Shown one piece after another: positions 4,478 through 52,282 of a stretch of DNA of 52,340 nt. Position 1 is the first letter of the stretch. Each line of letters starts with the position of its first letter. The DNA comes from Burkholderiaceae bacterium (GTDB lineage Bacteria > Pseudomonadota > Gammaproteobacteria > Burkholderiales > Rhodocyclaceae). Location: positions 1 through 52,340 of the forward strand of contig JAIPCT010000014.1 of assembly GCA_021738065.1 (NCBI GenBank), in the 5' to 3' direction. The notes beneath the pieces were generated by a model. It did not search any database, had not been told where the DNA came from, and saw only the letters and a list, made by a program, of their open reading frames with translations. The translations under genes and the position numbers were made by a program.

Positions 4478-5357
4478 GCGCCATATCCGAGGCACTACCG
4501 GTTTCCAGGACGCGCAGCAGCGCGGAAGTGTCGCTCTTGCCCCATCCTTGTCCCATCAGCGCATTCAGTTGCTGCCATACCGCGGCCGATACGGGCAAGG
4601 CAGCGCCGATCCGGCTCGCTTCGTCCATCAGCAGCGCATAGTCCTTGTGGTGCAGACGCGCTTCGACACCAGCCATGAAGTCCCGCGTCGCCATGCGACC
4701 GCCGAATACATCCAGCACCCGCGAGCCGGCGGAGCCGCCCAGCATGGCGGTACGAACCAGCGCGAAGTCGACACCCGACGCGGCGGCGAGTCGCGCCGCT
4801 TCCGCCGTCGCTTCGATCGCCGCGACCATGATCATCTGATTGCAAGCCTTGGCCACCTGCCCGGCGCCGGTTTCGCCAACGCGCACGATGGTTTTGCCCA
4901 GCGCCTCGAAGATCGGTTGCAGCCGTGTCGCCAGCGCCGACTTTCCGCCCCACATGATGGCCAGCGCCGCATTCTGCGCACCTGTGCTGCCACCGGAAAC
5001 CGGGGCGTCGACGAAGTCGACGCCTTGCCCGGCGTAGCGCGCGGCCAAGCGGCGCGCGGCGGAGGCGGCAATGGTGGAAAAATCGAGGTGCAGGCCGCCC
5101 GGCGCGAAGCCTTGCGCCAGACCCTCCGCGCCGAAGGCGAGCGCCTCGACATCCGCGCTGGCGGTGACATTGGTGCATACGATGTCGGCCTGGCGCGCCA
5201 CCTCGGCCGGCGATCCACAGCGACGGGCTCCCAGCGCAAGCAGCTCAGCGGCCGACTCGGGGCGGCGCGACCAGACAAACAGGCTGTGCCCGGCGCGCAG
5301 CAGATGCTCGGCCATCGGTCGACCCATCGCGCCAAAGCCGATAAAACCCAGGTTCAA
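4467..5357 (-). CDS. NAD(P)-dependent reductase, 3-hydroxyisobutyrate dehydrogenase family
   Basis: A beta-hydroxyacid dehydrogenase of 296 residues. It has the N-terminal dinucleotide-binding motif GFIGFGAMGRPMA, the substrate-site motif DAPVSGGSTGAQ near 117-128, and the catalytic lysine K170 in GQVAKACNQM. Possible activities include tartronate semialdehyde, succinic semialdehyde or 3-hydroxyisobutyrate reduction; the sequence does not decide. The start is TTG at 5357, overlapping the TGA of the upstream DUF4202 gene, so the two are probably translationally coupled. Residues 139-145 (KSALATR) are encoded by one copy of the short coding repeat described in the findings. Confidence 0.88.
   Translation of the reverse strand: MNLGFIGFGAMGRPMAEHLLRAGHSLFVWSRRPESAAELLALGARRCGSPAEVARQADIVCTNVTASADVEALAFGAEGLAQGFAPGGLHLDFSTIAASAARRLAARYAGQGVDFVDAPVSGGSTGAQNAALAIMWGGKSALATRLQPIFEALGKTIVRVGETGAGQVAKACNQMIMVAAIEATAEAARLAAASGVDFALVRTAMLGGSAGSRVLDVFGGRMATRDFMAGVEARLHHKDYALLMDEASRIGAALPVSAAVWQQLNALMGQGWGKSDTSALLRVLETGSASDMAHGR
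4922..4944 (-). repeat. Coding repeat K, copy in the reductase gene
   Basis: On the minus strand this reads the core GTCGGCGCTGGCGACACGG exactly. It is translated as KSALATR in the reductase, the second forward frame of the element. Confidence 0.75.
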
Positions 5358-5965
5358 GGCGCGCTGCCCGCCGGGCTGATGGCCTTGTTGATCAGGGGTA
5401 CCAGGGCCTCAGGCAGTTTGATGGCGCCGGACAAGGCGAATCGATGCGCCGCATCCGACATCTTGTTCCAGGTCTTGCGTACTATGCCCAGCCATTTCGC
5501 CTCGTCGTAATCCGGCTTGCTGCTGGCGAATCCGAGCATGTAGTGTTCGATGAAAACCAGGTCGGCGACGTCTTCGAGCAGCTGGGTTTCCGGGTTGACC
5601 TTGAGGCCGCGCTTGCCAACCGCAGCCATGACGCGTTCGACCAGGTCATCTTCGTAGCCGACCTGACGCATCAGCGCCCCGGCCGTTTCGGCGTGGAGCT
5701 TGTACAAGCCCGTGCGCCAGGCATGGTAGCCCTCCTTCGTCATCGGATAGCTGCTGCGGGGCACAGTCCAGCGCCGGATGTGCTGGGCGCGGACGGCCAG
5801 CCGCACGGCCTCGGATGCATCGGGCGCGAAACGATCCAGCATTTCCGACATGCGCCGGCCGTAGAGCAGTTCCTTGGGCTGGCCGGCGTCCAGATTGGGG
5901 TCTTCCGCGTTGGCCGCGTCAAATAGCGCGATGGCGCGATTGAATCGATCCTGCTGTGCACTCAT
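5354..5965 (-). CDS. DUF4202 family protein
   Basis: A predicted cytoplasmic protein of 203 residues matching the DUF4202 family by its conserved N-terminus (FNRAIALFDAANAEDP, KELLYGRRM) and by histidine-rich stretches (AQHIRRW, YKLHAETAG, LVFIEHYMLGF). Function is not established. The ATG at 5965 is preferred over one at 5986 because the family begins near the QDRFNRAI segment. The gene is 64 bases downstream of argJ and its stop codon overlaps the TTG start of the reductase, so argJ, this gene, the reductase and the PAS-GGDEF-EAL gene could form one transcript. Confidence 0.85.
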   Translation of the reverse strand: MSAQQDRFNRAIALFDAANAEDPNLDAGQPKELLYGRRMSEMLDRFAPDASEAVRLAVRAQHIRRWTVPRSSYPMTKEGYHAWRTGLYKLHAETAGALMRQVGYEDDLVERVMAAVGKRGLKVNPETQLLEDVADLVFIEHYMLGFASSKPDYDEAKWLGIVRKTWNKMSDAAHRFALSGAIKLPEALVPLINKAISPAGSAP

Positions 5966-6028: not shown

Positions 6029-7306
6029 CTACGAGCGGTAGTCGGCATTGATCTTGACGTAATCGTAGGACAGGTCGCAGGTCCAGACCGTGGCCTCCGC
6101 AGTGCCGCGGCCGAGATCGACGCGGACGGTAATTTCGGCGGCCGCCATGATGCGCGCGCCATCTTCCTCGCGATAGCTCGCGGCGCGGCCGCCGTTTTCG
6201 GAAACCAGCACTTCCTCGAATTGATCGCCTAAGCGACTGCCCAGCCAGACGCGAACGGCGGCGGCGTCCAGATCAGTGATGCCTGCGTATCCGATGGCGG
6301 CGAGAATGCGGCCAAGGTTGGGATCGGAAGCGAAAAAGGCCGTCTTGACCAGCGGCGAATGCGCTATGGCATAAGCCACCAGGCGGCATTCGTCCACCGT
6401 CGCGCCAGCGCCGACTTTCACGGTGATGAACTTGGTGGCGCCCTCGCCGTCGCGCACGATGGCCTGCGCCAGCTCCTGCGCCACGGCGATGACCGCGGCG
6501 CGCACGACCGGCCAATGGGGCGAGGCCTCGCTCTCGATCATGCACCCCGACGCGCCCGTGGCAATGACGACAAAGGAATCATTGGTCGAGGTGTCGCCGT
6601 CCACCGTAATGCAATTGAAGGACACGTCCGCGGCGTCCCGCGCCAATTGCTGCAACAAGGCCGGAGCGATGCCGGCATCGGTGGCGACGAAACCGAGCAT
6701 GGTGGCCATGTTGGGGCGAATCATCCCGGCGCCTTTGCTGATGCCGGTGACGGTGATCGAAAAGTTATGCGCAGCGGTATCCCCTGGCGGGACGGCGCTG
6801 GTGACACGGCGACTGGCGGCTTTGGCCACCGTATCGGTGGTCATGATGGCGTGCGCGGCGGCGTGCCAGTGGTCGGCGGCGAGATCCGCCTGCGCTGCCG
6901 GCAGGCCGGCAATCAGGCGCTCGACCGGCAAATGTTCGAGAATCACGCCGGTCGAGAACGGCAGCACTTCAGCGGCCTGGCAGCCCAGCAATTGCGCCAC
7001 CGCGGCACAGGTCTCGCGCGCCGCGCGCAGGCCTTGCTCGCCGGTCGCCGCATTGGCGATGCCGGTGTTGATCACCAGGGCACGAATGCCGCCGCCACTG
7101 GCCAGGTGCTCGCGACACAAGATGACGGGCGCGGCACAACATCGGTTCTGCGTGAACACGCCGGCCGCCTGACTGCCCGGCGCAAACTCGATCAAGCTCA
7201 GGTCGCGCCTGTTTTTCTTGCGAATGCCTGCCTCTGCCGTGCCGAGGCGGACACCGGCGACAGGGAACAGGGCTTCAGCGGCAGGGGTGGCGTAATTGAC
7301 AGGCAT
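6029..7306 (-). CDS. argJ: Bifunctional glutamate N-acetyltransferase/amino-acid acetyltransferase ArgJ
   Basis: ArgJ recycles the acetyl group in arginine synthesis by transferring it from N-acetylornithine to glutamate. The 425-residue precursor carries the self-cleavage site in [16 protein letters not shown], where the threonine of ATML is the nucleophile, plus [15 protein letters not shown] and a C-terminal INADYRS like other ArgJ proteins. The ATG at 7306 gives MPVNYATP; a start four codons upstream is less likely. Two stretches look modified by the coding repeat: residues about 165-172 (RRVTSAV, antisense reading) and about 296-303 (KVGAGAT). The first makes the loop before the cleavage site roughly eight residues longer than in homologues I recall. 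It sits 48 bases downstream of glnE. Confidence 0.95.
6397..6418 (-). repeat. Coding repeat K, first copy in argJ
   Basis: The minus strand reads AAAGTCGGCGCTGGCGC then GACGG. It matches the element's left 16 bases but diverges at the right end. It is translated as KVGAGAT in ArgJ, the first forward frame. This is the weakest of the accepted copies. Confidence 0.45.
6791..6811 (+). repeat. Coding repeat K, second copy in argJ (reverse to gene)
   Basis: The plus strand reads GACGGCGCTGGTGACACGGC, one mismatch from the core. Because argJ is on the minus strand the element is read antisense, giving RRVTSAV. Confidence 0.7.
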
Positions 7307-14984: not shown

Positions 14985-15034
14985 TTCGCCGCCACGCGGA
15001 GCCTTGCATTTTGCAAACAGAATACCAACCATTC

Positions 15035-15131: not shown

Positions 15132-15183
15132 TAAGCTTTTCCTGGTTCCGGCCCGTCCGGTCCAATGTTATTCAAGGACATCC

Positions 15184-16855: not shown

Positions 16856-17623
16856 TCACTTCTCGTCGAAGCTGTAACCCAGTTCGGCGACACCGCGCCG
16901 GATCGTCTCCAATGCCGCCGGCACCTGGTCCGGCGTGCCGCGAACGCCGAGTTCGATGTGCCGCTGGATTTCCTTGGTGCCGAGGAAGGGCAGGCTGAAG
17001 ACCTTGATGCCGGAGAAGTCCGCTTCGACACGGCGCATCAGATCGATCAGCGCGCCTTCGCTGCCTTTCCACACCAGAATCGCCGCGTCGGCACTCGGTC
17101 GCGCGTTGAAGCGCCATGAGTAAAAGCTGTCGAGCACCCACTCGACCATCGGCCAGGCCATTTGCGGAAAGCCCGGCACGAAATGGTGCTGGCCGAGCGT
17201 GAAGCCGGGAATCCGGTTGTAGGGATTGGGAATGATGCTGCTGCCTGCCGGGAAGTTGCCCAGCGCCAGTTGCAGATCGGTCAGCTCGAACTTGAGCTCG
17301 GCGAAACGCGCCTTGATCTCGCGCTCGGCGTCGGGATGCAGTTTGAGCTCGACACCCGCCGCGGCCGCCGCCGCTTGTCGCGTGTGGTCGTCCGGCGTAT
17401 TGCCGATGCCGCCAAAACTGAAAACGACGTCTTCGCTGGCAAAGCTGCGCCTGAGCGTTTCGGTCAGCCGCTCGCGGTCGTCGCCGATATAGGTCGCCCA
17501 ATCCAGCGCCAGGCCGCGGGCGCCGAGCAGCTCGACCATTTTGTGGAAATGCTTGTCCTCGCGGCGACCCAGCGTGATTTCGTCGCCGATGATGATGGCG
17601 CCAAAGCCTTTCACTCTGGGCAC
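16856..17623 (-). CDS. MoaB/CinA-type molybdopterin-binding domain protein
   Basis: A 255-residue protein of the competence/damage-inducible CinA N-terminal (MoCF-biosynthesis) family. It begins GFGAIIIGDEITLGRREDKH, continues with the FSFGGIGNTPDDHT motif that matches the GGxGPTxDD ligand-binding loop, and has FPQMAWPMVEWVL later. Related proteins include pyrophosphatases acting on ADP-ribose or FAD, but this version lacks the C-terminal nicotinamide-nucleotide amidase domain of full CinA. Exact function is not known. It is the distal gene of the hrpA - EI24 - CinA-like minus-strand run and is convergent with tldD. Confidence 0.82.
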   Translation of the reverse strand: MPRVKGFGAIIIGDEITLGRREDKHFHKMVELLGARGLALDWATYIGDDRERLTETLRRSFASEDVVFSFGGIGNTPDDHTRQAAAAAAGVELKLHPDAEREIKARFAELKFELTDLQLALGNFPAGSSIIPNPYNRIPGFTLGQHHFVPGFPQMAWPMVEWVLDSFYSWRFNARPSADAAILVWKGSEGALIDLMRRVEADFSGIKVFSLPFLGTKEIQRHIELGVRGTPDQVPAALETIRRGVAELGYSFDEK

Positions 17624-18689: not shown

Positions 18690-21600
18690 TCACTTGTGTT
18701 GCCTGCTGTCCCACATTTTCTGCAAGCGTTTGACCGAGACCGGCGAGGAGGTTTTCAGTTCCTGCGCGAACAAGGCAACGCGCAGCTCTTCCAGCAACCA
18801 GCGAAACTCGTCGAGAAACGCATCACTTAGCTGGCCGGACTTCAGCATGGCATTGCGCTCGCGCTCCCAGGGCGTGCCCAGTCCCTGCCAGTCTGCCATC
18901 AAACGTGCATCGCGCGCGGGGTCGCTGCGTGCCTTTTCCAGCCGCAGGTTGATGGCCTTGAGATAGCGCGGGTAATGCTGCAAGCGCTCGAAGGGTGTGG
19001 TGGCGATGAATCTCCTCGGCAGCAGTTCAGCCAGTTGCGCGCCGATGTCGGCGCAGGCTTGAGGGAAAGCCTTTTGCAGCGAGGCGAGTTTTTTCGCCAG
19101 CACGGCATGCTCGGCCAGAATGCTGCCGATCAGTCGCAGGATCTCCTGCGCCACGAGCAGCACCCGTCCGCGTGCCGCGTCGCGCCGTGTCGCGAACGCC
19201 GACTTTTCGGCCGGCAAGGGGTCCATCAGGCAGGTGCGCTCCAGGGTGACGGCGACCAGTTGTTCGCGCAGTTCCTTCTCGCTGCCCAGCGCCATGAACT
19301 GCAAGGCAGTGTCGCGTAGGCCCGGCAACTTCTCGATGGCCTTGACCTGGGCGGAAAGCTGCAGCGCAAACAGACGCGCCAGGCCGCGCCGATGCTCGGC
19401 GCGCGCCTTTTCTTCGGTATCGAAGGCGGTGAGGCGCACGCTCTCCCCCATGTCTACCAACGCCGGGAACCCCACCGTTACCTGCCCGCGAAGTGGTTTC
19501 CCAGGTACGCAAGGCGAGCCAGTGCCGACTTTCACCTCCATGAGTTCGGGCAAGGCGCCAAAGCTCCAGTCCGTCAGCCCAGACGCTTCGCCTTCCACCG
19601 CCTCATGCTTCAATTCGGCGGTGGCATAGGCCTGCTCGACGCGGCCGCGATACTCGGCGCGCAACTCCGCCAGATTGCGCGATATCGCCAGCGTGGCGCC
19701 ATGTTCGTCGCTGAGCCGAAAGTTCATGAACAGATGCGGCCGCAGTTCACCCGTTCTAAAGGCATCAAGCGGCAGTTTTTGCGCCAGCTTTTCTTCCGCG
19801 GCACGGGTCAGGGCGCGCACCAGCGGCTCGTCCGGATCGTGATCGTCGGCACAGAATGTTTCGGCAAAGGCATCCAGCGGTTGCAGGCGATGGCGATACT
19901 TTTGCTGCAGGGTCTTCAACAAGGCGAGAATTTTTTCCTTGAGCAGGCCCGGCACCAGCCACTCACAGCGGTTGGCCGGCAACTGGTTGAGCGCAGTGAG
20001 CGGCAGGCTCAGCGTCACGCCGTCGTCCGCCGCACCGGGATCGTGGTGGTAGCTCAACTTGAAACTCTGCCCGCGATGCAGAAGTTGCGGGGGGAACGCG
20101 TCGGTGGTGATGCCCGCCGCCTCGTGGCGCATCAACTGGTCCTTCTCCAGGCAGAGCAGCTTCGGGTTCGCACGCTCCGCCTCGCGCCGCCAATGGTCGA
20201 AGGCGGCCAGGGTGACGATGCCCTCGGGCAGCTTGTCGTCGTAGAAGGCATGAATCAATTCGTCATCGACCAGCACATCAGGTCGCCGCGACTTGTGCTC
20301 CAGCGCCTCGATTTCTCTGACGAGCTTGGCGTTGTGCTGGAAGAAACGCCACTTCTTCACCCAGTCTTCGCCGACCTGGCCCTCGACCAGGGCCTGACGA
20401 ATCAGGATTTCTCGCGCCAGCTTCGGATCGCTCGGTCCGTAATGCACGCGTCGCTTGGCGTGCAGCATCAGGCCGTGCAGCGTCACCCGCTCCCAGGCCA
20501 CCACCTGCCCCGGCCCCTTCTCCCAGTGCGGCTCATAGACATGGCGCCGGATCAAATGGCCGCCGACCTGCTCCAGCCATTCCGGTTCGACCTTGGCGAC
20601 GCAACGCGCGAACAGGCGCGAGGTTTCCACCAGCTCGGCAGCGACGATCCAGCGCCTGGCCTTTTTCTGCAGCGAGGACCCGGGATGGATGAAAAACTTG
20701 ATGCCGCGCGCGCCGAGGTAGTTGTTGTCTTCCTCGTTCTTCAGCCCGATGTGGCCGAGCAGACCGGTCAGCAGCGCCTTGTGGATGGCTTCGTAGCCAG
20801 AATCGCCCTTGCCGCCGGGCCGTCCCAAGGCGGGAGCGTTGTTCAAATCCGGAGCGGAGCGACCCGTAGTCACCCCCTCCCGCGGGGAGGGGGCTGGGGG
20901 GTAGGCACTCGAAATGTTCCAGCCGTGTTCATGGCACAGCGTCATCAACTGGCCATGCACCTCACGCCACTCGCGCAGGCGCAACCAGTTGATGAAGTTC
21001 TGCCGGCACCACTGGCGCTGCTTGCTGCTGGTTTCGTGTTTCCAGACTTCGTCGGCGGCATGCCACAGCTTGAGGTAGGACAGGAACTCCGACTTTTCGT
21101 CCTTCCATTTGGCATGCGCCTGGTCCGCCGCCCCCGCATGCTCCTGCGGCCGTTCGCGCGGGTCCTGGGTGCCGAGCGCGGCGGCGATGACCAGCACTTC
21201 CTTGAGGCAAGCCTGCTCGCGCGCCGCCAGAATCATGCGGCCGATCTTCGGATCGAGCGGCAGCCTGGCAAGTTCGACACCAATTTTTGTCAGCGCCTTG
21301 GTGGTCTCGTCCATGGCCCCCAGCTCGGTCAGTAGTTGGTAGCCGTCGGTGATCATGCGCGGCGCCGGCGCTTCGAGGAAGGGAAAGTCCTCGACATCGC
21401 CCAGGTGCAAGGATTTCATGCGCAGAATCACGCCGGCAAGACTCGAGCGCAGGATTTCGGGCTCGGTATAGGCCGGGCGCTTGTTGAAATCCTCCTCGTC
21501 GTAAAGCTTGAAGCAGATACCCGCCGAAACCCGTCCGCAACGGCCGGCACGCTGACTCGCCGCCGCGCGCGAAATCGGCTCGACCTGCAATTGCTCGACC

Positions 21601-26855: not shown

Positions 26856-26910
26856 ATATCACAACCCGGTGCGACAGGCCACACCGACGCCGTAGCGCCA
26901 GCGTCGAACT

Positions 26911-27294
26911 TCATTGCGCCAGCTTGTGAATCGTGAATATGCCCAGGCCGGTCATCAGCAGCGAGCCGAACAGATGCATGGAGGCGGCGCCCAATGCCCA
27001 TCCGTAGTCGGCACGCTGGATCATGGCGACAACTTCGGCGGAAAAGGTCGAGAAGGTGGTCAATGCGCCGAGAAAACCGGTGATCAGAAACAGCTTGAGC
27101 TCGGGCGACATCTCGGCATTGAGGTGAAACACCATCACCGCCGCGCCGACCAGGTAGCCGCCGATCAGGTTCGCCGCCAGGGTGCCCAGCGGCATGGCCG
27201 GCAGCAAGGGGTTGAGCCACAGGCCCAGCCCATAGCGCAGCCAGGCGCCGAGGGCGGCGCCAATGCCTATGGCCAGAAACGCACTGATGTTCAT
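26911..27294 (-). CDS. crcB: Fluoride ion channel CrcB (Fluc)
   Basis: A 127-residue four-helix membrane protein of the dual-topology Fluc family that exports fluoride. Visible signatures are GAALGAWLRYGLGLW near 12-26, GTLAANLIGGYLVGA near 38-52 and the GFLGALTTFSTFSAEV segment near 74-90 that includes the channel phenylalanines and central sodium site. It is divergent from glnS with a 60-base gap; I see no fluoride riboswitch there. Its last 30 codons are duplicated at 25990-26086. Confidence 0.95.
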   Translation of the reverse strand: MNISAFLAIGIGAALGAWLRYGLGLWLNPLLPAMPLGTLAANLIGGYLVGAAVMVFHLNAEMSPELKLFLITGFLGALTTFSTFSAEVVAMIQRADYGWALGAASMHLFGSLLMTGLGIFTIHKLAQ

Positions 27295-27354: not shown

Positions 27355-29178
27355 ATGGCCGATTCAGAACCCAAAGCCTCGATCCGAATGGATACCGTAC
27401 CCGGCGCAAGCGCACGGGTACATAATTTCATCCGCCACATCATCGACGCCGATCTCAAGACGGGCAAATACGCAGTGCGCCAGTGGAGCGGGCAGCCTGG
27501 CCCCGGAGAACAGCAAAAAGTCGGCGCTGGTGACGCCCCGCAGGAAGTCCCCTTGCGGGACACGGCGAAGATACGCACCCGCTTCCCGCCGGAGCCCAAT
27601 GGCTACCTGCATTTCGGCCATGCCAAATCGATCTGCCTGAATTTCGGCCTGGCGCAGGACTACGCCGGCGCCTGCCACCTGCGCTTCGACGACACCAATC
27701 CGGAGAAGGAAGAACAGGAGTATGTCGATTCCATCATCGACGCCGTGCATTGGCTGGGTTTCGACTGGCGTTTTGGCGAGGAGACCAACCAGTACTTCGC
27801 TTCCAATTACTTCCAGTGGATGTACGACTTCGCCGAGAAACTCATCGAGGCTGGGCATGCCTATGTCGACTCGCAAAGCGCCGAAGAAATGCGCGCCAGT
27901 CGCGGCACGCTGACCGAAGCCGGCAAGAACTCGCCCTTTCGCACGCGCACCCCGGCCGAGAATCTCGATCTTTTCCGCCGCATGAGGGCCGGCGAATTCG
28001 CCGACGGCACGCACATCCTGCGGGCGAAGATCGACATGGCCTCGGGCAACATCAACCTGCGCGACCCGGCGATCTACCGCATCCGCCACGCCACGCATCA
28101 CAACACCGGCGATGCCTGGTGCATCTATCCGATGTACACCTATGCCCATCCGATCGAGGACGCGCTGGAGAACATCACGCACTCGATCTGCACGCTGGAA
28201 TTCGAGGACCAGCGGCCGTTCTACGACTGGCTGCTGGCGCGCCTGGCCGAACTCGGCTGCATCAATACGCCGCCGCCGCAACAGATCGAATTCTCCCGGC
28301 TGAATCTTTCCTATGTCGTGCTCTCCAAACGCAAGCTGATCCATCTGGTCGAAGAAAAACACGTCGATGGATGGGATGACCCGCGCCTGCCGACCCTGGT
28401 CGGGGCGCGTCGGCGCGGCTTCACGCCCGAGGCTTTCCGCCGCTTCAACGAGATGAACGGCGTCACCAAGTCGGATTCCTGGATTGACATCAGCGTGCTG
28501 GAAGAATGTCAGCGCGAACATCTGAACGAAACCGCGCCGCGCCGCATCGCGGTGCTCGATCCGCTCAAGCTGATTATCGACAACTATCCGGAAGACCAGG
28601 AAGAGGAATGTCTGGCCCCCAACCATCCGCAAAAGCCCGACTGGGGCAAGCGCGTGGTGCCTTTCTCGAAAGAACTCTGGATCGAGCGCGAGGACTTCAT
28701 GGAAGTGCCGAGCAAGGGCTACTTCCGCCTGTTTCCAGGCAACAGCGTGCGCCTGCGCTATGGCTTCGTCATCAAATGCCTCGACTGCGACAAGGACGCC
28801 GTGGGCAACATCAGCGCCGTGCATTGCGAATACATGCCCGACTCGAAGTCCGGCACGCCGGGCTCGGACAACTACAAGGTCAAGGGCAACATTCACTGGG
28901 TGTCGGCGCGCCACGCCCATGCCGGCGAAATCCGCCTGTACGACCGCCTGTTCGCCGTCGCGGCGCCGGGCGCCGAGGGGCGCGACTTCATTGCCGATCT
29001 GAATCCGGATTCCAAGCGCGTGATCTCGGCGCAGCTCGAAGCCTCGCTGCAAAATGCCGCGGCCGAAGACCGCTTCCAGTTCGAGCGCCACGGTTATTTT
29101 GTCGCCGACCGCATCGATTCCAGACCCGGCGCTCCGGTGTTCAACCGCAGCGTCACTTTGAAGGACGGCTGGAAATGA
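27355..29178 (+). CDS. glnS: Glutamine--tRNA ligase
   Basis: Charges tRNA-Gln with glutamine in the cytoplasm. Class I synthetase motifs are present: [20 protein letters not shown] (HIGH box) and VLSKRKL (KMSKS box), followed by the GlnRS beta-barrel anticodon domain. The 607 residues exceed the roughly 555 of E. coli GlnRS. Part of the excess is an insertion at about residues 41-72, just before [12 protein letters not shown], where E. coli has only a few residues. The inserted DNA is a coding repeat K copy split by a further 24-base segment. The start is ATG 27355; ATG 27388 is an alternative. The stop overlaps the pyrF start. Confidence 0.96.
27516..27567 (+). repeat. Coding repeat K, split copy inside glnS
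   Basis: The left part AAAAGTCGGCGCTGGTGAC is at 27516-27534 and the right part GACACGGCG at 27559-27567. Between them are 24 bases containing CCGCAGG and CCTTGCGG, a bulged inverted repeat. The whole is read in frame as KVGAGD, then APQEVPLR, then DTA. Confidence 0.78.
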
Positions 29179-29999
29179 AATTCTCCGAGCAACTCAGCGC
29201 CGCCTGGCAAAAAAACAACTCCCTGCTCTGCGTCGGACTCGATCCCGACCCGGCGAAGTTTCCCGCCCATCTCAAAGCTCAGCCGGATGCGATCCTGCGC
29301 TTTTGCAGCGAGATTGCCGATGCCACGGCCGATCTTGTCTGCGCCTTCAAGCCGCAGATCGCCTACTTCGCCGCGCGTCGCGCGGAGGACCAGCTCGAAG
29401 CGCTGATCGCGCACATCCACGACAGGCATCCGGGCATACCGGTGATCCTCGATGCCAAGCGCGGCGATATCGGCAGCACCGCCGAGCAATATGCGATCGA
29501 GGCCTTCGAGCGCTACCGCGCCGATGCGGTGACGGTGAACCCCTACATGGGTCGCGACTCGATCGAACCCTGGCTGGCCTGGCAGGACAAGGGCGTAATC
29601 CTGCTCTGCCGCACCTCCAATCCGGGTGGCAGCGATCTGCAATTCCTGAAAGCAAAAGTCGGCGCTGGTGATACGGCGATTTTCGAACACGTGGCCCGCC
29701 TCGTCGCCGAAGAGTGGAACACCACAGGCCAGTGCGCCCTCGTCGTCGGCGCAACCTTCCCCGGCGAGATCGCCCGCGTCCGTGAAATCGTCGGCGACAT
29801 GCCGCTGCTGGTGCCCGGCATCGGCGCCCAGGGCGGCGATATAGAAGCCACGGTCAAGGCCGGCAAGACCGCGGCCGGCAGCGGATTGATGATCAACTCC
29901 TCGCGCGCCATTCTGTATGCCGGCAATGGCGAGGATTACGCCACCGCCGCGCGCCGCGTCGCGCTGGAAACACGGGACGCCATCAACCGCTGGCGCTAG
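29175..29999 (+). CDS. pyrF: Orotidine 5'-phosphate decarboxylase
   Basis: Catalyses the last step of UMP synthesis, decarboxylating OMP. The 274-residue enzyme is of the type found in mycobacteria and many betaproteobacteria, with LCVGLDPDP near the start, FKPQIAYF near 57, the catalytic [15 protein letters not shown] near 92-106, and PGIGAQGGD near 214. The ATG overlaps the glnS stop (ATGA). Residues 161-168 (KVGAGDTA) are coded by one exact-frame copy of coding repeat K, in the loop after [12 protein letters not shown] strong bidirectional terminator follows. Confidence 0.95.
29655..29678 (+). repeat. Coding repeat K, copy in pyrF
   Basis: The sequence carries GTCGGCGCTGGTGATACGG, one mismatch from the core, preceded by AAA. 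It is translated in the first forward frame as KVGAGDTA. Confidence 0.75.
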
Positions 30000-32112: not shown

Positions 32113-32514
32113 ATGGACACTCTCTATCAACTCAGGCATCACCCGGTCGATCTCGAATCCGCCGCCGGACTCGAAATCGTTCTCCACGAATGCCAGCCTT
32201 TGCGTCTGGTCCGTGCCAGGGGCCAAAGCATCGCCTGCCGCGCCGGGCGCGTCTGGATCACCGCACCGGGCGTGACCCAGGACATTTTTCTCCATCCGGG
32301 TGCAGCGTGGGAGGTCAGCAGCAATGGTCTGGTGCTGGTCGAAGCCCTCGACCAGGCGGTGGTCGTGCTGCTCACGCCAGCGACGCGGCCTGAAAAAGCC
32401 GTGGTGTCGCGAATCGCCGCTCGACAGAAAAGCTTGCAGCCGGAAGGTGGGCGCAAAGTCGGCGCCGGCAACACGCCGCCTGGCTCCGAAGCAACGCCTT
32501 TGCCCTGCGCTTGA
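32113..32514 (+). CDS. DUF2917 domain protein
   Basis: A 133-residue small protein with the DUF2917 core CQPLRLVRARGQSIACRAGRVWIT near 27-50, followed by a cupin-like run of beta strands (PGAAWEVSSNGLVLVEAL). These proteins are common beside MocR regulators in betaproteobacteria, but their role is unknown. The C-terminal 20 residues (from KVGAGNTPPGSE) are encoded by a coding repeat K copy and look like a tail added after the conserved domain. Confidence 0.82.
   Translation: MDTLYQLRHHPVDLESAAGLEIVLHECQPLRLVRARGQSIACRAGRVWITAPGVTQDIFLHPGAAWEVSSNGLVLVEALDQAVVVLLTPATRPEKAVVSRIAARQKSLQPEGGRKVGAGNTPPGSEATPLPCA
32455..32478 (+). repeat. Coding repeat K, copy at the 3' end of the DUF2917 gene
   Basis: The sequence reads AAAGTCGGCGCCGGC then AACACGCCG, a few mismatches from consensus, and is translated as KVGAGNTP. 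Confidence 0.6.
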
Positions 32515-34988: not shown

Positions 34989-36139
34989 GGCTGCCAGGCG
35001 TCCAGCGCACCGGCCGGTGCGATGCCGCGCTCGGAGATGATGCCGCTGATCAACGCGGCCGGGGTCACGTCAAACGCCGGATTGGCGACTTGCGTGCCCA
35101 GTTCGGCGAGCGAGGTGCCGACTTCTTCGGCGGCCCGTTCTTCAATCGGAATTTCGGCGCCCGCAGGACAGGCGAAATCGATGGTCGACAGCGGCGCCGC
35201 GACGTAAAACGGCACCCCATGCGCCTGCGCGGCGAGCGCCTTGAGATAGGTACCGACCTTGTTCGCGGTATCGCCATTGGCGGCAATCCGATCGGCGCCG
35301 ACAATCACCAGCTCGACCTTGCCCTGCATCAGCAAGAGACCCGCCGCGTTGTCCACCACCAGGGTATGCGGCACGCCAGCCTCGGCAAGCTCCCAGGCGG
35401 TGAGCAGGCCCTGGTTGCGCGGTCGCGTCTCGGAAACCCAGACATGCACCGCCAGGCCGGCGGCATGCGCGGCATACACCGGCGCCAGCGCCGTGCCGTG
35501 CTCGACGGTGGCCAGGCGACCGGCATTGCAGTGGGTCATGAGGTTGACGACGTCGCCGTCACGAAAAACTTGCCCCTCCTCCCCGGCTCTCCGGTCAGAC
35601 GCCGGCGGCGGCGACCCGGATCCATCCCGCGCAAGGACATGCCTGGCGCGCGCTTCGCTGATGCGCTGAATCAGCAACAAACCGTGCCTGCCGATGGCGG
35701 CATTCGCCGCCTTGTCTTCGCGGGCAATGGCGCGAGCCTCGTCCCAGGCAACATCTCGCCGTGTCGCCAGCGCCGAGTTTTGCAGCACGCGGCGCAAACG
35801 CTGCAGAGCCCATTGCAGATTGACCGCGGTGGGGCGTGTTGCCGCAAGGGTATCGACGACGTACTGCACACGGGCATCGGAGGCATCGGTCGCCAGTCCG
35901 AGGGCGACGCCGTAAGCCGCCGTGGCGCCGATCAGCGGCGCGCCACGAACCTGCATGGACCGAATCGCGTGGGCCGCGTCTTCCAGCGTCTCCAGTCGCA
36001 CGTATTCGATCGCATAGGGCAAGCGGGTCTGGTCGAGAACCACGACATGGGCGCCATCCTCGCGAATCGTCGGCCGGCTCGATGCCGTATCCTGGCTGAT
36101 GGAAACGGCCGGGCCGTCCTTGTCCGCGCCGCGACTCAA
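34985..36139 (-). CDS. mtnA: S-methyl-5-thioribose-1-phosphate isomerase
   Basis: Isomerises 5-methylthioribose 1-phosphate to the ribulose form in methylthioadenosine salvage; many also accept 5-deoxyribose 1-phosphate. Of 384 residues, key motifs are VRGAPLIGATAAYG near 60, the catalytic cysteine in NLMTHCNAGRLAT and the aspartate in VGADRIAANGDTANKVGTY. The only start that keeps the N-terminal domain is TTG 36139, one base after the secA stop. Two unusual stretches are present: residues about 119-127 (NSALATRRD, coding repeat K) and about 163-189 (DGSGSPPPASDRRAGEEG), an apparent insertion just before the active-site cysteine loop. Confidence 0.93.
   Translation of the reverse strand: MSRGADKDGPAVSISQDTASSRPTIREDGAHVVVLDQTRLPYAIEYVRLETLEDAAHAIRSMQVRGAPLIGATAAYGVALGLATDASDARVQYVVDTLAATRPTAVNLQWALQRLRRVLQNSALATRRDVAWDEARAIAREDKAANAAIGRHGLLLIQRISEARARHVLARDGSGSPPPASDRRAGEEGQVFRDGDVVNLMTHCNAGRLATVEHGTALAPVYAAHAAGLAVHVWVSETRPRNQGLLTAWELAEAGVPHTLVVDNAAGLLLMQGKVELVIVGADRIAANGDTANKVGTYLKALAAQAHGVPFYVAAPLSTIDFACPAGAEIPIEERAAEEVGTSLAELGTQVANPAFDVTPAALISGIISERGIAPAGALDAWQP
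35757..35781 (-). repeat. Coding repeat K, copy in mtnA
   Basis: The minus strand carries CTCGGCGCTGGCGACACGGC, one mismatch from the core, preceded by AAAA. It is translated in the second forward frame as NSALATRRD. Confidence 0.72.
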
Positions 36140-45882: not shown

Positions 45883-46805
45883 CAGTTCCCCTCTCTTCCG
45901 CGCTCGGACTTGTTGCCTGTTACACCGACAATGCGCACTTCCCGCACCAGGGAAATGCCGAACTTCTGTTCGACCACTGCCTGAATTTGGCCGATTAGCA
46001 GTTCTATCGCACTCGCGCTTGCCTTGCCCTCTGGATTAACGATGAAATTCGCATGCTTTTCGGAAACCTGCGCGCCATCGATCTGTGAGCCTTTGAGGCC
46101 TGCCGCCTCGATCAATCGCGCGGCGTGATCGCCGGGCGGATTGCGGAAGACGGAGCCGGCGTTGGGCAGTTGCAGCGGCTGGGTCGCCGTGCGTCGATCG
46201 AGGAGTTCGCGCATGCGCTGTTGAGCGGCTTCCGTCGCGTCTTCGGGAAAACGGAACCAGGCGGCGGCAAAGATCTCGTCCGTGGATTGCTTGAGGCCGA
46301 CATGGCGATAGCCGATGGCGAAATCATCAGGCGTGCGGACAATCTGCTCGCCGTCGCGATTCAGCATCAACGCGCGCTCCACATAGCGCCAGGTTTCGCC
46401 CCCGTGGCAACCCGCGTTCATGGCCAGCGCGCCACCCACGGTACCGGGAATGCCGGCGAGGAACTCGGCCTCGGCGCAACCCTGCTTGCCGACAAACCGC
46501 GCCAGCTTTGGCGAGGGAACGCCGACTTCGGCATAGAAGCTGCCGTCGGCTTCGCGCCGCAACGTGTCCAGTACGCCGAGCGTGAAAATCGCGGTGCCAT
46601 CGAAGCCGCCGTCACGCACCAGCAGATTGCTGCCCAGGCCCACCATCAGCAGCGGTTCGTCGGGGCGCAGTCCTTGAAGGAAAACGACAAGATCGGCCAG
46701 ATCGGCAGGGAAATACGCCCGCGCCACGGGCCCTCCCGCGCGCCAGGACGCATGCCCGGCCATCGACTCGTTTTCGCGCAGCACACCGCGCAGCGCTTCA
46801 GTCAT
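45882..46805 (-). CDS. murB: UDP-N-acetylenolpyruvoylglucosamine reductase
   Basis: The FAD-dependent enzyme completing UDP-MurNAc synthesis. The 307-residue type of the family has [19 protein letters not shown] near 54-72, [23 protein letters not shown] near 112-134 and the C-terminal serine/glutamate region [23 protein letters not shown] near 220-242. ATG overlaps the murC stop by eight bases. Confidence 0.97.
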
Positions 46806-48198
46806 GGGCGGCCTCGTCGCTCAAGCGGGCCGCTACGCCGCCAATGGAACCGGCACCCATGGTGATCACCACATCGCCATCACGCGCTGCCGCCAGAATG
46901 GCTGCCGGCATCGCCGCGATATCCTCGACGAATATCGGCTCCAGCTTGCCGGCGACGCGCACGGCGCGCATCAGCGTGCGGCTGTCAGCGGCGATGATCG
47001 GCGCCTCGCCGGCGGCATAAATTTCGCCGAGCAGCAGGGCATCGAATTCGGACAGCACCCTGACGAAGTCCTCGAAGCAGTCGCGAGTGCGGGTGTAGCG
47101 ATGCGGCTGAAACGCCAGCACCAGACGGCGTCCGGGAAAGGCACCGCGTGCCGCAGCGAGGGTCGCCGCCATTTCCACCGGATGATGGCCGTAATCGTCG
47201 ACCAGGGTGAATTGGCCGCCGGCAGGACAGGCAATCTCGCCATGACGCTGAAAGCGCCGACCGACACCGCGAAACTCGCCCAGTGCCTTGATGATCGCCG
47301 TATCGCCAACGCCGACTTCCGTGGCCACGGCAATCGCGGCCAGCGCGTTCAGCACGTTGTGCCGCCCCGGCAGATTGAGCACGATAGGCAAGCGGGTGAC
47401 GCTGCCATTGGTGCGCACGCACGTGAAGCGCATGGTGCCGCCCTCGGCCACCACGTCTTCGCCACGAAAACTGGCGTCGCTGTCGATGCCGTAGGTGACG
47501 ATCTGTTTCGCCACGCGCGGAATGATCTCGCGTACGTTGGGGTCGTCGCCGCAGACGACGGCAACACCGTAGAAGGGCAGGCGATGGAGGAAATCGACGA
47601 ACGCCTGTTTCAACCTCTCGAAGTCGTGGCCGTAGGTTTCCATGTGATCGGCATCGATGTTGGTGACCACCGAGACCACGGGCGACAGAAACAGGAAGGA
47701 AGCATCGGACTCGTGGGCTTCCGCCACGAGGAATTCGCCGCTGCCCAATTGGGCGTTGACGCCGGCCGAATTCAGACGGCCGCCGATGACGAACGTCGGA
47801 TCGAGGCCCCCGGCCGCGAGACAACTGGCAACCAGGCTGGTGGTGGTGGTTTTGCCGTGCGTACCGGCAATCGCGATGCCCTGCTTGATGCGCATCAGTT
47901 CGGCCAGCATCTGCGCGCGCGGCACCACAGGCACGTGACGCTCGCGCGCCATTTGTACCTCCGGGTTGTCCTCGCGCACGGCGGTCGACACCACGACCGC
48001 GTCCGCGGTGGCGACGTTCTGCGCCTGATGGCCGATCGCGATGCGGATGCCCTGCGCCGCCAGGCGGCGAGTCGTTGCACTGTCATTGAGATCGGAGCCG
48101 CTGATCTCGAAACCCTGGTTGGCCAGCACTTCGGCAATGCCGGACATGCCGGCGCCGCCGATGCCGACGAAGTGGATGCGCTTGACTTTGTGTTTCAT
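46798..48198 (-). CDS. murC: UDP-N-acetylmuramate--L-alanine ligase
   Basis: Adds L-alanine to UDP-MurNAc. The 466-residue Mur ligase has the N-terminal [15 protein letters not shown] near 11-25, the ATP loop [14 protein letters not shown] near 112-125, and [13 protein letters not shown] near 342-354. Residues about 293-300 (EVGVGDTA) match coding repeat K in the first forward frame without obvious lengthening of the protein. A family P palindrome separates it from murG. Confidence 0.98.
47296..47318 (-). repeat. Coding repeat K, copy in murC
   Basis: The minus strand reads AAGTCGGCGTTGGC then GATACGGCG, two mismatches from the core, and is translated as EVGVGDTA. The local protein length is ordinary, so a chance or converted match is possible. 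Confidence 0.5.
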
Positions 48199-48236
48199 GA
48201 TGAAGCCTCTATACCGGGCAAGCGAGGTGATTGATC

Positions 48237-48316
48237 ACCACGGAGGGCACGGAGCACACGGAGAGAGACAAGACAGAATTTCAGCTTTTCTCCGTGGTCT
48301 CCGTGCCCTCCGTGGT
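48237..48316. repeat. Intergenic palindrome family P, copy 5 (CGGAG type)
   Basis: The left arm begins at 48237 (ACCACGGAGGGCACGGAG and on) and the right arm is at 48290-48316 (ending CCCTCCGTGGT). They pair over 27 bases with two mismatches. It lies between murG and murC, both on the minus strand. Confidence 0.93.
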
Positions 48317-48334
48317 GGCATGTATTTCCCATTT

Positions 48335-49390
48335 TTATTTCGCCAGCTCCACGCAGGCCCGCGCCACGTCTGCCGTGGCTTCCGGTCGCGCCAGTTCGCG
48401 CGCTCTCTCGGCCATTTGCGCGAGTTGCTGGCGCGAGAGATTGCGGATCTCGGCCAGGCTCTGTGGAGTCAGTTCATCCTGCGGCAACAGGATCGCTGCT
48501 CCGGCATTGCTGAGAAAGCGCGCGTTCGCGGTTTGATGATCATCCACCGCATGCGGAAACGGCACCAGCAGACTGGCCACGCCTGCCGCCGCCAGTTCGG
48601 CCACGGTCAGCGCCCCCGAACGGCAAATCACCAGATCCGCCCAGGCGTAGGCTCCGGCCATGTCGTTGATAAATGCCACGCAATCGGCCTTCACGCCCGC
48701 CTCGGCGTAGCGCTTGGTCAGCGCGGGCAGATGCTTCTCGCCGGCCTGGTGCACCACGGCCGGCCGATCCTGTTCCGCAAGCTGCGCCAGGGCGCGGGGC
48801 AGCGCTTCATTCAGAGCCTGCGCTCCCAGGCTGCCGCCGACGACGAGAACGCGCAGCGGCCCTTCATGCCGGGTATAACGCAAAGTCGGCTCTGGCAGCA
48901 CGGCGATTTCGGGGCGCACCGGGTTGCCGACCCAGTCGCCTTTTTTCAGCACATCGGGGAATCCTGTCAACACCCGATCGGCCAGACCGGAAAGCACGCG
49001 ATTGGCCAGACCGGCCACTGAATTCTGTTCGTGCAGCACCAGCGGAATGCCCTTGAGCGAAACCATCATCGCGCCGGGAAAACTGATATAGCCGCCCATT
49101 CCCAGCACCACATCCGGCCGGATTCGCTTGAGTTCGGCCCATGCCTGGACAAATCCGCGCAGCAGATTGAACGGCAACACCAATTTGCGCACGAAACCTT
49201 TGCCGCGCAAAGCGGAAAAGCGCACCCAGGCCATTTCGTAGCCGCGCCCGGCTGTCAACTTCGCCTCCATGCCATCCGGGTTTCCCATCCAGGCGATCTT
49301 CCAGCCCTGTTCGCGCAGATGCTCGGCAACCGCCAGCCCCGGCATGATGTGCCCGCCCGTGCCGCCAGCCATGATCAGGATGGTTTTCAT
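48335..49390 (-). CDS. murG: UDP-N-acetylglucosamine--lipid I transferase MurG
   Basis: Adds GlcNAc to lipid I on the inner membrane face to form lipid II. The 351-residue GT-B enzyme has [22 protein letters not shown] near 4-25, [15 protein letters not shown] near 124-138, [18 protein letters not shown] near 178-195 and [16 protein letters not shown] near 257-272. ATG 49390 is used; the frame continues upstream through the palindrome to 49471 but that part is not family sequence. Residues about 161-169 (AVLPEPTL) are coded by coding repeat K read antisense. Confidence 0.97.
48882..48905 (+). repeat. Coding repeat K, copy in murG (reverse to gene)
   Basis: The plus strand reads AAAGTCGGCTCTGGC then AGCACGGCG, about three mismatches from consensus. 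Since murG is on the minus strand it is read antisense, giving AVLPEPTL. Confidence 0.55.
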
Positions 49391-49408
49391 TGAGCTGCAA
49401 ACCCTTGA

Positions 49409-49538
49409 ACCACGGGGAACACGGGGGGCACGGGGAAATTCAAGAACCGTGAGAGGTTTTTGCACTTGCATATCATGTGCCGGAACCGATCGCAGCTACT
49501 CCTTGGTTCTCCCCGTGCCCCCCGTGTTCCCCGTGGTT
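49409..49538. repeat. Intergenic palindrome family P, copy 6 (CGGGG type, perfect 27-bp arms)
   Basis: The left arm at 49409-49435 (ACCACGGGGAACACGGGG and on) and the right arm at 49512-49538 (ending TTCCCCGTGGT) are perfect reverse complements over 27 bases. It fills the gap between ftsW and murG, both on the minus strand. Confidence 0.97.
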
Positions 49539-49556
49539 GCGTCATGTCTTTGTTAC

Positions 49557-50720
49557 TCATACCTGCTGCCCCCGCATCAACTGCCGATTTTCCCAATCGA
49601 CGCGGAGCAGGATGCCCAGGGCCAGGCAGTTGGTGACGATGCCCGAGCCGCCGAAACTCATCAGCGGCAGGGTCAGGCCCTTGGTCGGCAACAGGCCCAT
49701 GTTCACGCCCATGTTGATGAAACCTTGCACGCCGAGCCAGATGCCGATGCCCTGGGCGACCAGTCCGGAATGCACGCGTCCCAGCACCAGTGCCTGGCGA
49801 CCGATGGCGAACGAGCGCTGCACCAGCAAGGCGAACAGCCCAACCACAAAACAGACGCCGACAAATCCCAGTTCCTCGGCAATCACGGCGAGCAGGAAGT
49901 CGGTGTGTGCCTCGGGCAGGTAGAACAGTTTTTCGACGCTGGCACCGAGGCCGACGCCGAACCATTCGCCGCGGCCAAAGGCGATCAGCGCGTGCGAGAG
50001 CTGATAGCCCTTGCCGAAGGCGTCTTGCCAGGGATCCATGAAACCGAATATGCGCTCGCGCCGATAGGGTGATACCCAGATCATGATGATGAAACTGATC
50101 ACCAGCACGACGACCAGACCGCTGAACACCCTCGCGTTGATGCCGCCCAGAAACAGAATGCCGGTCGCGATGCAGAGAATGACCACCAATGCGCCGAAAT
50201 CCGGTTCGCGCAGCAGCAGGAAGCCGACCAGCACCATGACCAGCGCCATCGGCCCGAATCCGCGCACGAAACTGCCCATGTCATGCAGCTTGCGACTGGT
50301 GTAGTCGGCCGCGTAGATGACGACAAACAGTTTCATCAACTCAGAGGGCTGGAGATTGATCGGCCCGAGCCCGATCCAGCGCTGGGCGCCATTCACGGAA
50401 CGGCCGACATGTGGAATCAGCACCACCAGCAGCAAGACAACGCCCGTCAGAAAAAGCCAGGGCGCCGCCTGCTGCCACAGGCGCAGGGGAATCTGGAAGG
50501 CCATCACGCCGGCGACCAGTCCCACTGTCAGGAATACCGCGTGACGCACCAGAAAATACGCCGATTGATTGCCGGTGAAGCGGCTGCCTTCGGCCGTCGC
50601 GATCGAGGACGAATACACCATCACCAGTCCGAGCAGCAGCAGGGCCAGGGCCGGCCAGAGCAGAAGACCGTCGAGCTCGGCGGGAGCCTGCTGCGCAGGC
50701 GCGGCGTAGGCTCGGCTCAT
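49557..50720 (-). CDS. ftsW: Peptidoglycan glycosyltransferase FtsW
   Basis: A SEDS-family lipid II polymerase of the division machinery. The 387-residue protein has ten hydrophobic segments, [20 protein letters not shown] near 113-132 with the SEDS motif, and the C-terminal [17 protein letters not shown] near 341-357. ATG 50720 overlaps the murD stop by four bases (ATGA); the frame extends to 50855 inside murD. Confidence 0.97.
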
Positions 50721-52282
50721 GTCTGGCGCTCCAGGGCTTGCACCGCAGCGGCGAACACCTCGCCGCGATGCGGGTAGTTGCGGAACATGTCGAAACTGGC
50801 GCAGGCGGGAGAAAGCAGCACGACATCGCCCGGACGGGCCAGACGCCGCGAACACGCCACCGCATCTTCCATGCTGTCCGCGTGCTCGATGACAAGACCG
50901 GCATCACCCACGGCATGCTCGATCAACGGTCCGTCGCGACCGATCAGAACCAGCACCCGCACATGGCGCGCCATGACCGGCTTGAGAGGCGAGAAGTCCT
51001 GACCTTTGCCTTCGCCACCGGCAATAAGAATGATCTTGCGATCATTCTTATTGCCGTTCGGCGGAACTGGAGCGCCCTCCCTCCCAGCCTCCCTCCCCAA
51101 GGGAGGGAGGTGACTCTTGCGATCATTCTTATTGCCGTTCGGCGGAACTGGAGCGCCCTCCCTCTCGGCCTCCTGCTTCGCGCCCGTCATTTCGGCCAAC
51201 TGCTCGCCGATGCCGTTCAGGGCGGCCAGCGTGGCGCCGACGTTGGTGCCTTTGGAATCGTTGTACCAGATCACGCCGTCGAATTCCGCGATCCGCTCGA
51301 CGCGATGCGGCAAGCCGCGAAAACTGCGCAAGGCCGGCAGCAGTGCATTGGCATCGAAGCCGAGACTCGCGCACAAGGCCAGTGCCGCCATGGCGTTGGC
51401 GGCGTTGTGCAAGCCCGCCAGCGGCAACTCGGATACCGGCAGCAAGTAGCGCTCGCCTTGCACCAGCCACGTTTCGCCGCGATTCGGGCGCAGGCCGAAG
51501 TCCTCGCTGGCTGCCGGCGCATCCAGTCCAAAGCTGATGATGCGGTGGCCGGCCAGCGCCATGTGGCGTACATGGGGATCATCCCGATTCAGCACTTGCA
51601 CGCCGGGCGCGCCTTGCGCGGACTGGAAAATTCTGGCCTTGGCCGACGCATATTCGTCGAGCGTGATGTAGCGGTCGAGATGGTCTTCGGAAATGTTCAG
51701 CACCGTCGCCGCGGCAGGATTGAGCGTCGCCGTGGTTTCCAGTTGAAAACTGGAAAGCTCGAGCACCCACAGTTGCGGCAAGACGCCGCCATCCTGCGCC
51801 GCCATCAGCGCAGTCAGCGCCGCCGGCGAGATATTGCCGGCGACACCGACGGTCTTGCCCGTGGCGCGCAGCAAATGCCCGGTCAGCGCGGTGGTAGTGG
51901 TCTTGCCGTTGGTGCCGGTGATGGCCACGACCGGCGCCGAGGTAGTGCCGGCCGGCGCAATGCTGCGCAAGCCCTGGGCAAACAGTTCGATTTCGCCAAC
52001 CACCGGTATGCCGGCGCCACGTGCCTGCAAGACCACCATCAAACCACCCGAAAGCCCCGGCGAAAGGACCAGCAGGTCGATACCGACGAGCAAGGACTTG
52101 GCGAACTCGCCGCCTAAAAACTCGGCGCTGGCGACACGGCGGCGCAGCTCCTCCAGATTCGGCGGCGCGGCACGCGTATCGGCCACCCGTACGCGCGCAC
52201 CCTGGCGCGCGCACCACAACGCGCAAGCCAGGCCCGATTCGCCGAGGCCGAGGATGAGAACGTGTTTGCCGTTCAAATCCAT
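50717..52282 (-). CDS. murD: UDP-N-acetylmuramoylalanine--D-glutamate ligase, with large internal insertion
   Basis: Adds D-glutamate to UDP-MurNAc-L-Ala. The Mur ligase core is complete: [16 protein letters not shown] near 8-23, the ATP loop [17 protein letters not shown] near 120-136, [16 protein letters not shown] near 344-359 and [15 protein letters not shown] near 417-431. The protein is 521 residues, against 438 in E. coli. Most of the excess is at about residues 370-415, where [15 protein letters not shown] occurs twice with [11 protein letters not shown] between. That insertion lies between the conserved SKGTN region and the Rossmann strand of the C-terminal domain, an exposed linker. 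Residues 47-55 carry a coding repeat K (RRVASAEF). Confidence 0.96.
51020..51055. repeat. Perfect 16-bp-arm hairpin inside murD
   Basis: GGCAATAAGAATGATC at 51020-51035 and GATCATTCTTATTGCC at 51040-51055 are perfect reverse complements around TTGC. One arm encodes the conserved ILIAG strand; the other encodes GNKND of the insertion. Confidence 0.97.
51035..51164. repeat. 49-bp direct duplicate in murD, period 81
   Basis: Positions 51035-51083 and 51116-51164 are identical over 49 bases (starting CTTGCGATCATTCTTATTG). The spacing of 81 bases is 27 codons, so both are read in the same frame as [15 protein letters not shown]. Confidence 0.96.
51081..51115. repeat. GC-rich element family B, in-frame copy inside murD
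   Basis: The plus strand reads CTCCCAGCCTCCCTCCCC then AAGGGAGGGAGGTGACT, an inverted repeat. This is the same layout as the hrpA copy (CCCAGCCCCCTCCCC then GGGAGGGGGTGACT), but in the opposite orientation to the gene. It is translated as [12 protein letters not shown]. Confidence 0.75.
52117..52141 (+). repeat. Coding repeat K, copy in murD (reverse to gene)
   Basis: The plus strand carries CTCGGCGCTGGCGACACGGC, one mismatch from the core, preceded by AAAA. murD reads it antisense as RRVASAEF, the same reading as in ArgJ (RRVTSAV). Confidence 0.7.

Follow-up and report, generated by a model that had tools for sequence, protein, structure and literature searches.

A 26-bp motif dispersed through the genomes of Sulfuritalea and its kin as a candidate DNA uptake signal

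Why should one short piece of DNA recur inside unrelated conserved genes and be translated there in several different frames? The question is raised by a window of 52,340 nucleotides, the whole stretch of DNA analyzed here, which forms an entire contig (JAIPCT010000014.1) of the 3.40-Mb draft genome G000. An initial annotation, made from the letters alone, had listed 12 sites in it that share the core GTCGGCGCTGGYGACACGG. We compared G000 with the single-contig genome G002, which belongs to the same genus (we take this to be Sulfuritalea, and G002 itself presumably to be S. hydrogenivorans), and with relatives across the family and order. By analogy with the DNA uptake sequence (DUS) and the uptake signal sequence (USS), we think it probable that the repeat serves as a genome-wide DNA uptake signal of independent origin. 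With slightly less assurance, we favor the fuller proposal that it constitutes a third, independently evolved code for uptake of self-DNA, found in environmental Rhodocyclaceae and characterized by a continuous core of unusual length, dialects both between genera and within them, one near-loss genome and presumably a new reader protein.

A long asymmetric motif present in hundreds of copies

At up to three mismatches, the core has 11 matches in the window against a mean of 0.11 expected, and none of 100 shuffles reaches 11. Eleven of the 12 sites listed initially are matched at this stringency, whereas the "half" site at 19518 falls below 8 bits of the weight matrix described next. A genome-wide search of the kind proposed in the initial annotation, again at up to three mismatches, yields 592 matches in G000 (283 forward and 309 reverse), compared with seven (4+3) for the reversed pattern. 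Weight matrices built from 452 kb of G000 and from 400 kb of G002, sampled as 20 evenly spaced stretches of 20 kb, excluding sites at stretch ends, extend the core to an asymmetric motif of 26 positions, RAAAGTCGGCGCTGGYGRNACGGCGA, including one variable dinucleotide. At a threshold of at least 14 bits there are 80 sites in the G000 sample and 77 in that of G002, and none for the reversed matrix. The two strands are used about evenly (the plus strand has 36 of 76 matrix sites in one genome and 35 of 81 in the other), and density is 0.18–0.26 per kb. Strong conservation is seen over a G+C-rich block of some 25 positions, which includes the one variable dinucleotide, and the same G+C-rich motif is kept by G199, a genome of 55% G+C.

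The information content of the motif is about 35 bits (36.1 and 34.5 for the two matrices), while 13.3–13.5 bits would be needed to locate that many sites. A driven sequence should show such an excess, an ordinary binding site should not, and the point bears on the main rival explanation, namely that a chromosome-organizing protein (a nucleoid-associated, condensin-loading or segregation factor) binds the motif at hundreds of dispersed, orientation-independent sites. We regard this as unlikely, although it deserves the most serious attention among the alternatives. Hundreds of copies on both strands, positions conserved in orthologs, and counts per 20 kb that are almost regular in G000 (variance/mean 0.32) all fit a chromosome organizer, and a reader with drifting specificity would likewise yield the dialects described below. 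However, such a protein would not need the surplus information, the motif is nearly lost in a species inside the genus (G016), and no polarity is seen in the G002 stretches. Moreover, the imperfect palindrome of the core is not conserved, as positions 13–14 vary and their mirror positions 0–1 hardly do. Two lines of argument were dropped on the way. A first listing of the G002 matches looked strand-polar, but no replichore polarity is seen across the 20 evenly spaced stretches; and even spacing is not used as an argument because G000 and G002 disagree on it.

Placement within and between genes, and the origin of copies

That conservation acts on the DNA and not on the protein, as initially proposed, is borne out by synonymous codon shuffling within genes. 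In G002, 45 real genic sites compare with a mean of 9.1 and a maximum of 13 over 20 shuffles; in G000, 47 compare with a mean of 10.45 and a maximum of 13, again over 20. Outgroup orthologs, in addition, lack the element. About one-fifth of genic sites survive the shuffling (~9–10 of the 45–47), which is what can be said for ordinary protein conservation or composition bias producing chance matches. This explanation, to which we assign a negligible probability, is excluded as the main cause by the near-zero counts of the reversed patterns, the use of several unrelated frames, and the persistence of the G+C-rich motif in G199.

The frames are unequally used. Among the 92 genic sites of the two sampled genomes, 41 are read as KVGAGDTA, 24 as AVSPAPTF, 16 as RRVASADF and nine as KSALATRR, so that four of the six frames hold 90 sites; the shunned frames, which would read KSRRWRHG and SPCRQRRL, have one site each. 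The initial claim that the frame carrying a stop codon in the TGGTGA variant is never used thus needs slight correction, since one of the 92 sites uses it. It had also been claimed that all copies lie within coding sequences. This is so for 12 of the 13 matrix sites of the window; genome-wide, however, only 92 of the 157 sites in the sampled stretches of G000 and G002 lie wholly inside called genes and 65 do not. Density is 0.12 per kb in called genes against 0.75–0.96 per kb elsewhere, a 6- to 8-fold difference, although the gene caller misses short genes (such as the DUF2917 gene of the window), which makes genic counts lower bounds and somewhat inflates the figure outside genes. Nineteen of the 65 non-genic copies lie between convergent genes, though such gaps make up 13–16% of intergenic DNA. 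Two inverted pairs were found, both at convergent gene ends in G002; a search for pairs up to 100 bp apart in five sequence sets, comprising 382 sites, adds none to these. The consensus is nearly equal for genic and intergenic copies and their flanks are unrelated; flank identity equals the random level among intergenic copies and exceeds it slightly among genic copies.

The window illustrates these readings. Its genes were identified by Pfam and PDB matches (reductase, ArgJ, DUF3418 helicase, GlnRS, PyrF, the IF-2B family protein MtnA, MurG and MurD), by Pfam (DUF2917) and by alignment with relatives (MurC). The KVGAGDTA-type frame, initially reported for GlnRS, PyrF, MurC and DUF2917, is found in all four: in the interrupted glnS copy described below, in pyrF (29175–29999, +; copy at 29654..29679, +, 44.0 bits), in murC (46798–48198, −; 47295..47320, −, 35.8 bits) and in the C-terminal tail of the DUF2917 gene (32113–32511, +; PF11142, E 3.5e-13; copy at 32454..32479, +, 25.9 bits), where reading of the open frame gives RKVGAGNTP. 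It is used as well in argJ (6029–7306, −) at 6394..6419 (−, 33.3 bits; KVGAGATV), a gene for which only the antisense copy had been assigned a reading. The KSALATRR-type reading holds in the NAD-binding reductase gene (4467–5357, −; 4920..4945, −, 36.3 bits; GGKSALATRLQ), in mtnA (34985–36139, −; 35756..35781, −, 42.2 bits) and in a DUF3418 helicase gene assigned by Pfam and presumably of HrpA type (18690–22571, −; 19182..19207, −, 33.4 bits; AEKSAFATRRD). Antisense copies are read as RRVTSAV in argJ (6787..6812, +, 21.1 bits) and as RRVASAEF in murD (50717–52282, −; 52117..52142, +, 40.4 bits), and the fourth reading proposed for murG (48335–49390, −) proves to be a further antisense frame, AVLPEPT (48881..48906, +, 30.0 bits). 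In total, the matrix gives 13 window sites at 14 bits or more; those absent from the initial list are a doubtful weak copy at 16930..16955 (−, 15.9 bits) and a degenerate one at 26887..26912 (−, 23.1 bits), the latter outside called genes and upstream of the called glnS frame.

How did these copies arise? The initial annotation had pointed to Rickettsia palindromic elements, small repeated DNA that enters conserved genes by insertion and is read there in several frames, and had suggested looking for clean insertions with defined ends. The alignments do not support that parallel: where they are reliable, copies replace existing codons one for one. We compared the cell-wall gene cluster in ten genus members and nine outgroup loci, leaving out G038, in which it is split over contigs. 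The MurC site is at the same place in eight of the ten genus members and the MurG site in six of ten, none of the nine outgroup loci has a motif site in the cluster, and in all nine MurC and MurG align through the site without a gap. The MurD site, present in seven of nine covered genus members, lies in a region of variable length and is uninformative. When aligned with solved structures, the reductase site (PDB 1vpd and 9rb2) and the ArgJ site at 6394 (1vra_B and 1vz6) are ungapped, and that of MtnA adjoins a one-residue gap (1t9k). Outgroup alignments were available for 13 of the 92 genic sites, of which nine are ungapped in at least one alignment and four are gapped in all, the other 79 being without an alignment. 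Compared with the motif-poor G016, 37 of 187 sites are spanned, 31 of them in the single cell-wall cluster; 14 of the alignments are gapped, and no clean insertion of 24–27 bp was found among the 37, the largest gap, at a site of 16 bits, measuring 21 nt.

A small mobile or palindromic element inserting in frame into genes, similar to Rickettsia palindromic elements or to repetitive extragenic palindromes (REP), would account for discrete 26-bp ends with unrelated flanks, and for gaps at some weaker or variable sites (the 14 of 37 and four of 13 just mentioned, and the four residues by which PyrF exceeds PDB 3qw3). We nevertheless hold it to be very improbable, given the ungapped orthologs in MurC, MurG, the reductase and ArgJ and the lack of any clean insertion in the 37 spanned sites, even though 31 of these are repeated looks at one gene cluster. 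Copies were apparently built by small changes to existing sequence rather than by insertion; this origin by substitution applies to the best-aligned sites, and the others are ambiguous.

A true insertion, in fact, looks different. The glnS site described initially as split is a perfect 26-mer interrupted in frame by 27 bp, GCCCCGCAGGAAGTCCCCTTGCGGGAC, which form a hairpin with a 3-bp direct repeat. The 5′ part of the copy (27516..27534, +) breaks off after GGTGAC, the palindrome (27535..27561, +) ends in GAC as does the DNA preceding it, and the 3′ part (27562..27568, +) supplies ACGGCGA. The palindrome has eight matches in G000 at up to three mismatches (the glnS one included) and one to seven in four relatives, with none for the reversed pattern. 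It belongs to a separate small repeat family and is the sole in-frame insertion found.

Several other repeats were seen in the window. Near glnS, a 97-bp near-duplicate (96% identical) occupies 25990–26086 and 26908–27004, 918 bp apart, the second overlapping the 5′ end of the glnS-containing open frame, and a 59-bp direct duplicate (97% identical) lies inside the murD reading frame at 51034–51092 and 51115–51173. Long inverted repeats occur at 15032–15134, 17633–17762, 48236–48317 and 49408–49538, with short near-repeated units CCACAGAGACACAGAGG, CCACGGCGAACACGGCG and CCACGGGGAACACGGGG; top words of G016 include CAGAGGCGCAGA, which resembles these units. An array of 15-bp units, CTTTGGCACTGACCC, spans 23838–24002.

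Clade restriction, near-loss and dialects

The motif is dense in a small part of the family and rare elsewhere. In a set of 61 genomes searched at up to two mismatches, the 31 belonging to the genus carry 24–617 matches, compared with 0–4 in the 30 from other genera (controls 0–3). Among 249 genomes of the family, searched with a 21-mer at up to one mismatch, the 28 loaded ones (72–580 matches) all belong to six of 68 genera, Sulfuritalea and its kin; G016, of the genus Sulfuritalea, has 14, G293, of a loaded genus, has none, and the remaining 219 have 0–15. Of 399 genomes of the order, 24 have any match to a 23-mer at up to one mismatch, and never more than four outside the family. Exact 25-mer matches, of which 80 are considered here out of at least 118, come chiefly from records of Sulfuritalea, Sulfurisoma and Rhodocyclales or Rhodocyclaceae, with single records of Rugosibacter, Zoogloea and Sulfurimicrobium and a few labeled Gammaproteobacteria. 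The cultured Sulfurisoma sediminicola BSN1 has at least one exact copy of the 25-mer.

A SecA tree was built from 28 of 30 genomes, without G095 and G099, so that g70 rests on one genome in it. Here the loaded genera g1, g62, g88, g32 and g70 group together with moderate support (88/86) and g43 forms its own group (100/100). Both groups sit inside a larger one that also contains unloaded genomes, and three changes on the tree are needed to account for the loaded label. Because G016 is placed among the Sulfuritalea rows, near-loss of the motif is the simplest reading for this genome, in which one aligned site still scores 30 bits. Small clusters of good copies were also observed in otherwise motif-poor genomes (G135:C1 1461265–1502263; L322 of G076; G304:C3), and perhaps represent imports from loaded relatives or contamination of the drafts.

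The end of the motif differs between lineages, as seen from exact 21-mers ending in GCGA or GCAC counted in 31 genomes. The nine Sulfuritalea genomes besides G016 have 64–188 GCGA and 0–8 GCAC copies (G016 has neither). In three species of genus g43, GCAC replaces GCGA (GCGA/GCAC of 0/213 in G132, 1/287 in G209 and 1/81 in G072), and their sister species are mixed (32/49 in G177, 36/31 in G236, 35/14 in G259 and 11/51 in G278; 0/0 in G293). The other 13 genomes favor GCGA (171/3 in G091, 22/6 in G061, 29–72/0–6 in seven of g88, and 73/8, 72/7 and 10/0 in g70), apart from G189 of g70, with 3 GCGA and 4 GCAC. Since the change is spread over hundreds of unrelated sites, it points to a single trans-acting reader whose preference may have shifted. 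A further dialect considered in the outgroup G034 (L235–L254) was rejected: its own abundant words TGTGGGAGCGGC, GAGCGGCGGCCT and GCCTCGCCGCGA and their overlaps suggest instead a hairpin family of the REP type, at a density similar to that of the motif.

An inherited reader of any kind would fit the clade pattern, and this leaves room for a signal of another DNA-templated process, such as a Chi-like recombination hotspot, a word linked to restriction-modification or methylation, or a HIP1-like word, all of which are over-represented and drift between clades. Yet such words are short (Chi and HIP1 have 8 bp), and signals of the Chi type are strand-polar, a polarity not seen in the G002 stretches. 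We consider this group of explanations improbable, and more so than a chromosome organizer.

A candidate uptake signal compared with known systems

The observations fit a process that would reward a DNA word in itself, whatever its place or orientation, and would build it from existing sequence. Biased uptake followed by recombination is a known process of that kind, and for this reason we favor an uptake signal. In the mechanism we propose, some part of the type IV pilus or of the competence machinery that can read sequence would bind DNA with the 26-bp motif and import it preferentially, and homologous recombination would then swap recipient alleles for incoming ones that bear the motif. Mutations improving a match would be carried along, a form of molecular drive, and point mutations could build copies wherever the sequence tolerates them, either between genes or in genic frames that yield harmless peptides.

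Competence machinery is present, as judged from ComEC (58 of 58 genomes examined), a ComP_DUS-type pilin (PF16732; 56 of 58) and a GspH/FimT-type pilin (23 of 23), and is not specific to loaded genomes. Because it does not distinguish loaded from unloaded genomes, we propose no receptor; an alignment of pilins, with eight of 18 loci recovered, showed nothing useful in this respect.

Several observations weigh against an uptake signal. The searches for ComEC, ComP_DUS and GspH (in 58, 58 and 23 genomes, respectively) fail to separate loaded from unloaded genomes, and the best ComP_DUS-type matches reach 91 bits in unloaded genomes and 35–52 bits in most loaded ones (75.7 in G177, 69.3 in G091 and 58.7 in G165, with none in loaded G189). 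At 26 bp, the motif is longer than the cores of 9–12 nt (9 bp for USS) given in PMC12616744, and its density of 0.18–0.26 per kb is lower than the value of about one per kb described for USS (PMC7811141). Inverted pairs, reported as common with DUS (PMC3630211), are rare here. Evenness is unequal between genomes, the variance/mean of counts per 20 kb being 1.27 in G002 and 0.32 in G000. The motif columns are not wholly independent either: the summed mutual information is 6.81 against 5.55 ± 0.30 and 8.02 against 6.39 ± 0.34 in shuffles of all columns for the two genomes, a dependence strongest around −3 to +1 that could hint at some copying or subtypes. The PyrF site and the second ArgJ site lie in loops longer than those of solved relatives (PDB 1vz6 for ArgJ). 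Finally, exact copies also occur on viral contigs, in at least 120 stretches; in 80 of these (L363–L442) the density, after discounting one site for each stretch, is 0.058 per kb, compared with 0.155 in 80 named genome loci, three stretches having 5–6 sites, and host or proviral DNA may be included in this count.

Set beside these points are the traits shared with known signals, which lead us to read the motif as a third, independent uptake signal: origin by point mutation, frequent location of copies in reading frames, one frame with a stop codon, and dialects are all described for DUS or USS (PMC12616744, PMC3630211, PMC1939737 and PMC7811141). In the literature covered, which left most subscription papers and all bioRxiv preprints outside its scope, no paper was found that connects Sulfuritalea or Rhodocyclaceae with uptake sequences, Rhodocyclales with uptake sequences and natural transformation, or Sulfuritalea with intragenic repeats.

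Other short repeats resemble the motif in fewer ways. Rickettsia palindromic elements share with it the position within conserved genes and the use of several frames, but they are inserted whereas the motif replaces codons at well-aligned sites; the 27-bp palindrome of glnS is nearer to that kind. REP and bacterial interspersed mosaic elements (BIME) are likewise a short dispersed family; here, however, 92 of 157 sites lie wholly in called genes and the conserved positions are asymmetric.

The likeness is closer to the two known uptake codes, whose best-known members are host-associated. If our interpretation is true, a third origin in environmental bacteria would show that an uptake code does not depend on a mucosal habitat, and it would offer an outside comparison for how such codes arise, shift and vanish, as in G016 and in the mixed and pure dialects of g43. 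Like the DUS of Neisseriaceae (PMC3630211; 2245–5918 copies per genome), the motif has many genic and intergenic copies, dialects that follow phylogeny, a frame with a stop codon and some inverted pairs. It differs in being 26 bp of unrelated sequence rather than 10–12 bp with a CTG core, and in being several-fold sparser with rare inverted pairs. In the sampled stretches, known DUS words occur about as often as chance would give. PF16732 matches occur in loaded and unloaded genomes alike. With the USS of Pasteurellaceae it shares an origin by point mutation rather than insertion (PMC7811141) and a location mostly in reading frames, here 92 of 157 sites and in H. influenzae 65% of copies (PMC1939737). 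It differs in that a G+C-rich block of about 25 positions takes the place of a 9-bp core with AT-rich flanks, and the Hin and Apl cores (AAGTGCGGT or ACAAGCGGT) are not enriched, with one and zero copies in each of two sampled genomes against an expectation of 2.2–3.3. The extended USS including its AT tracts does span a length comparable to the 26-bp motif. Judged by these comparisons, the motif would work like DUS and USS while being a member of neither.

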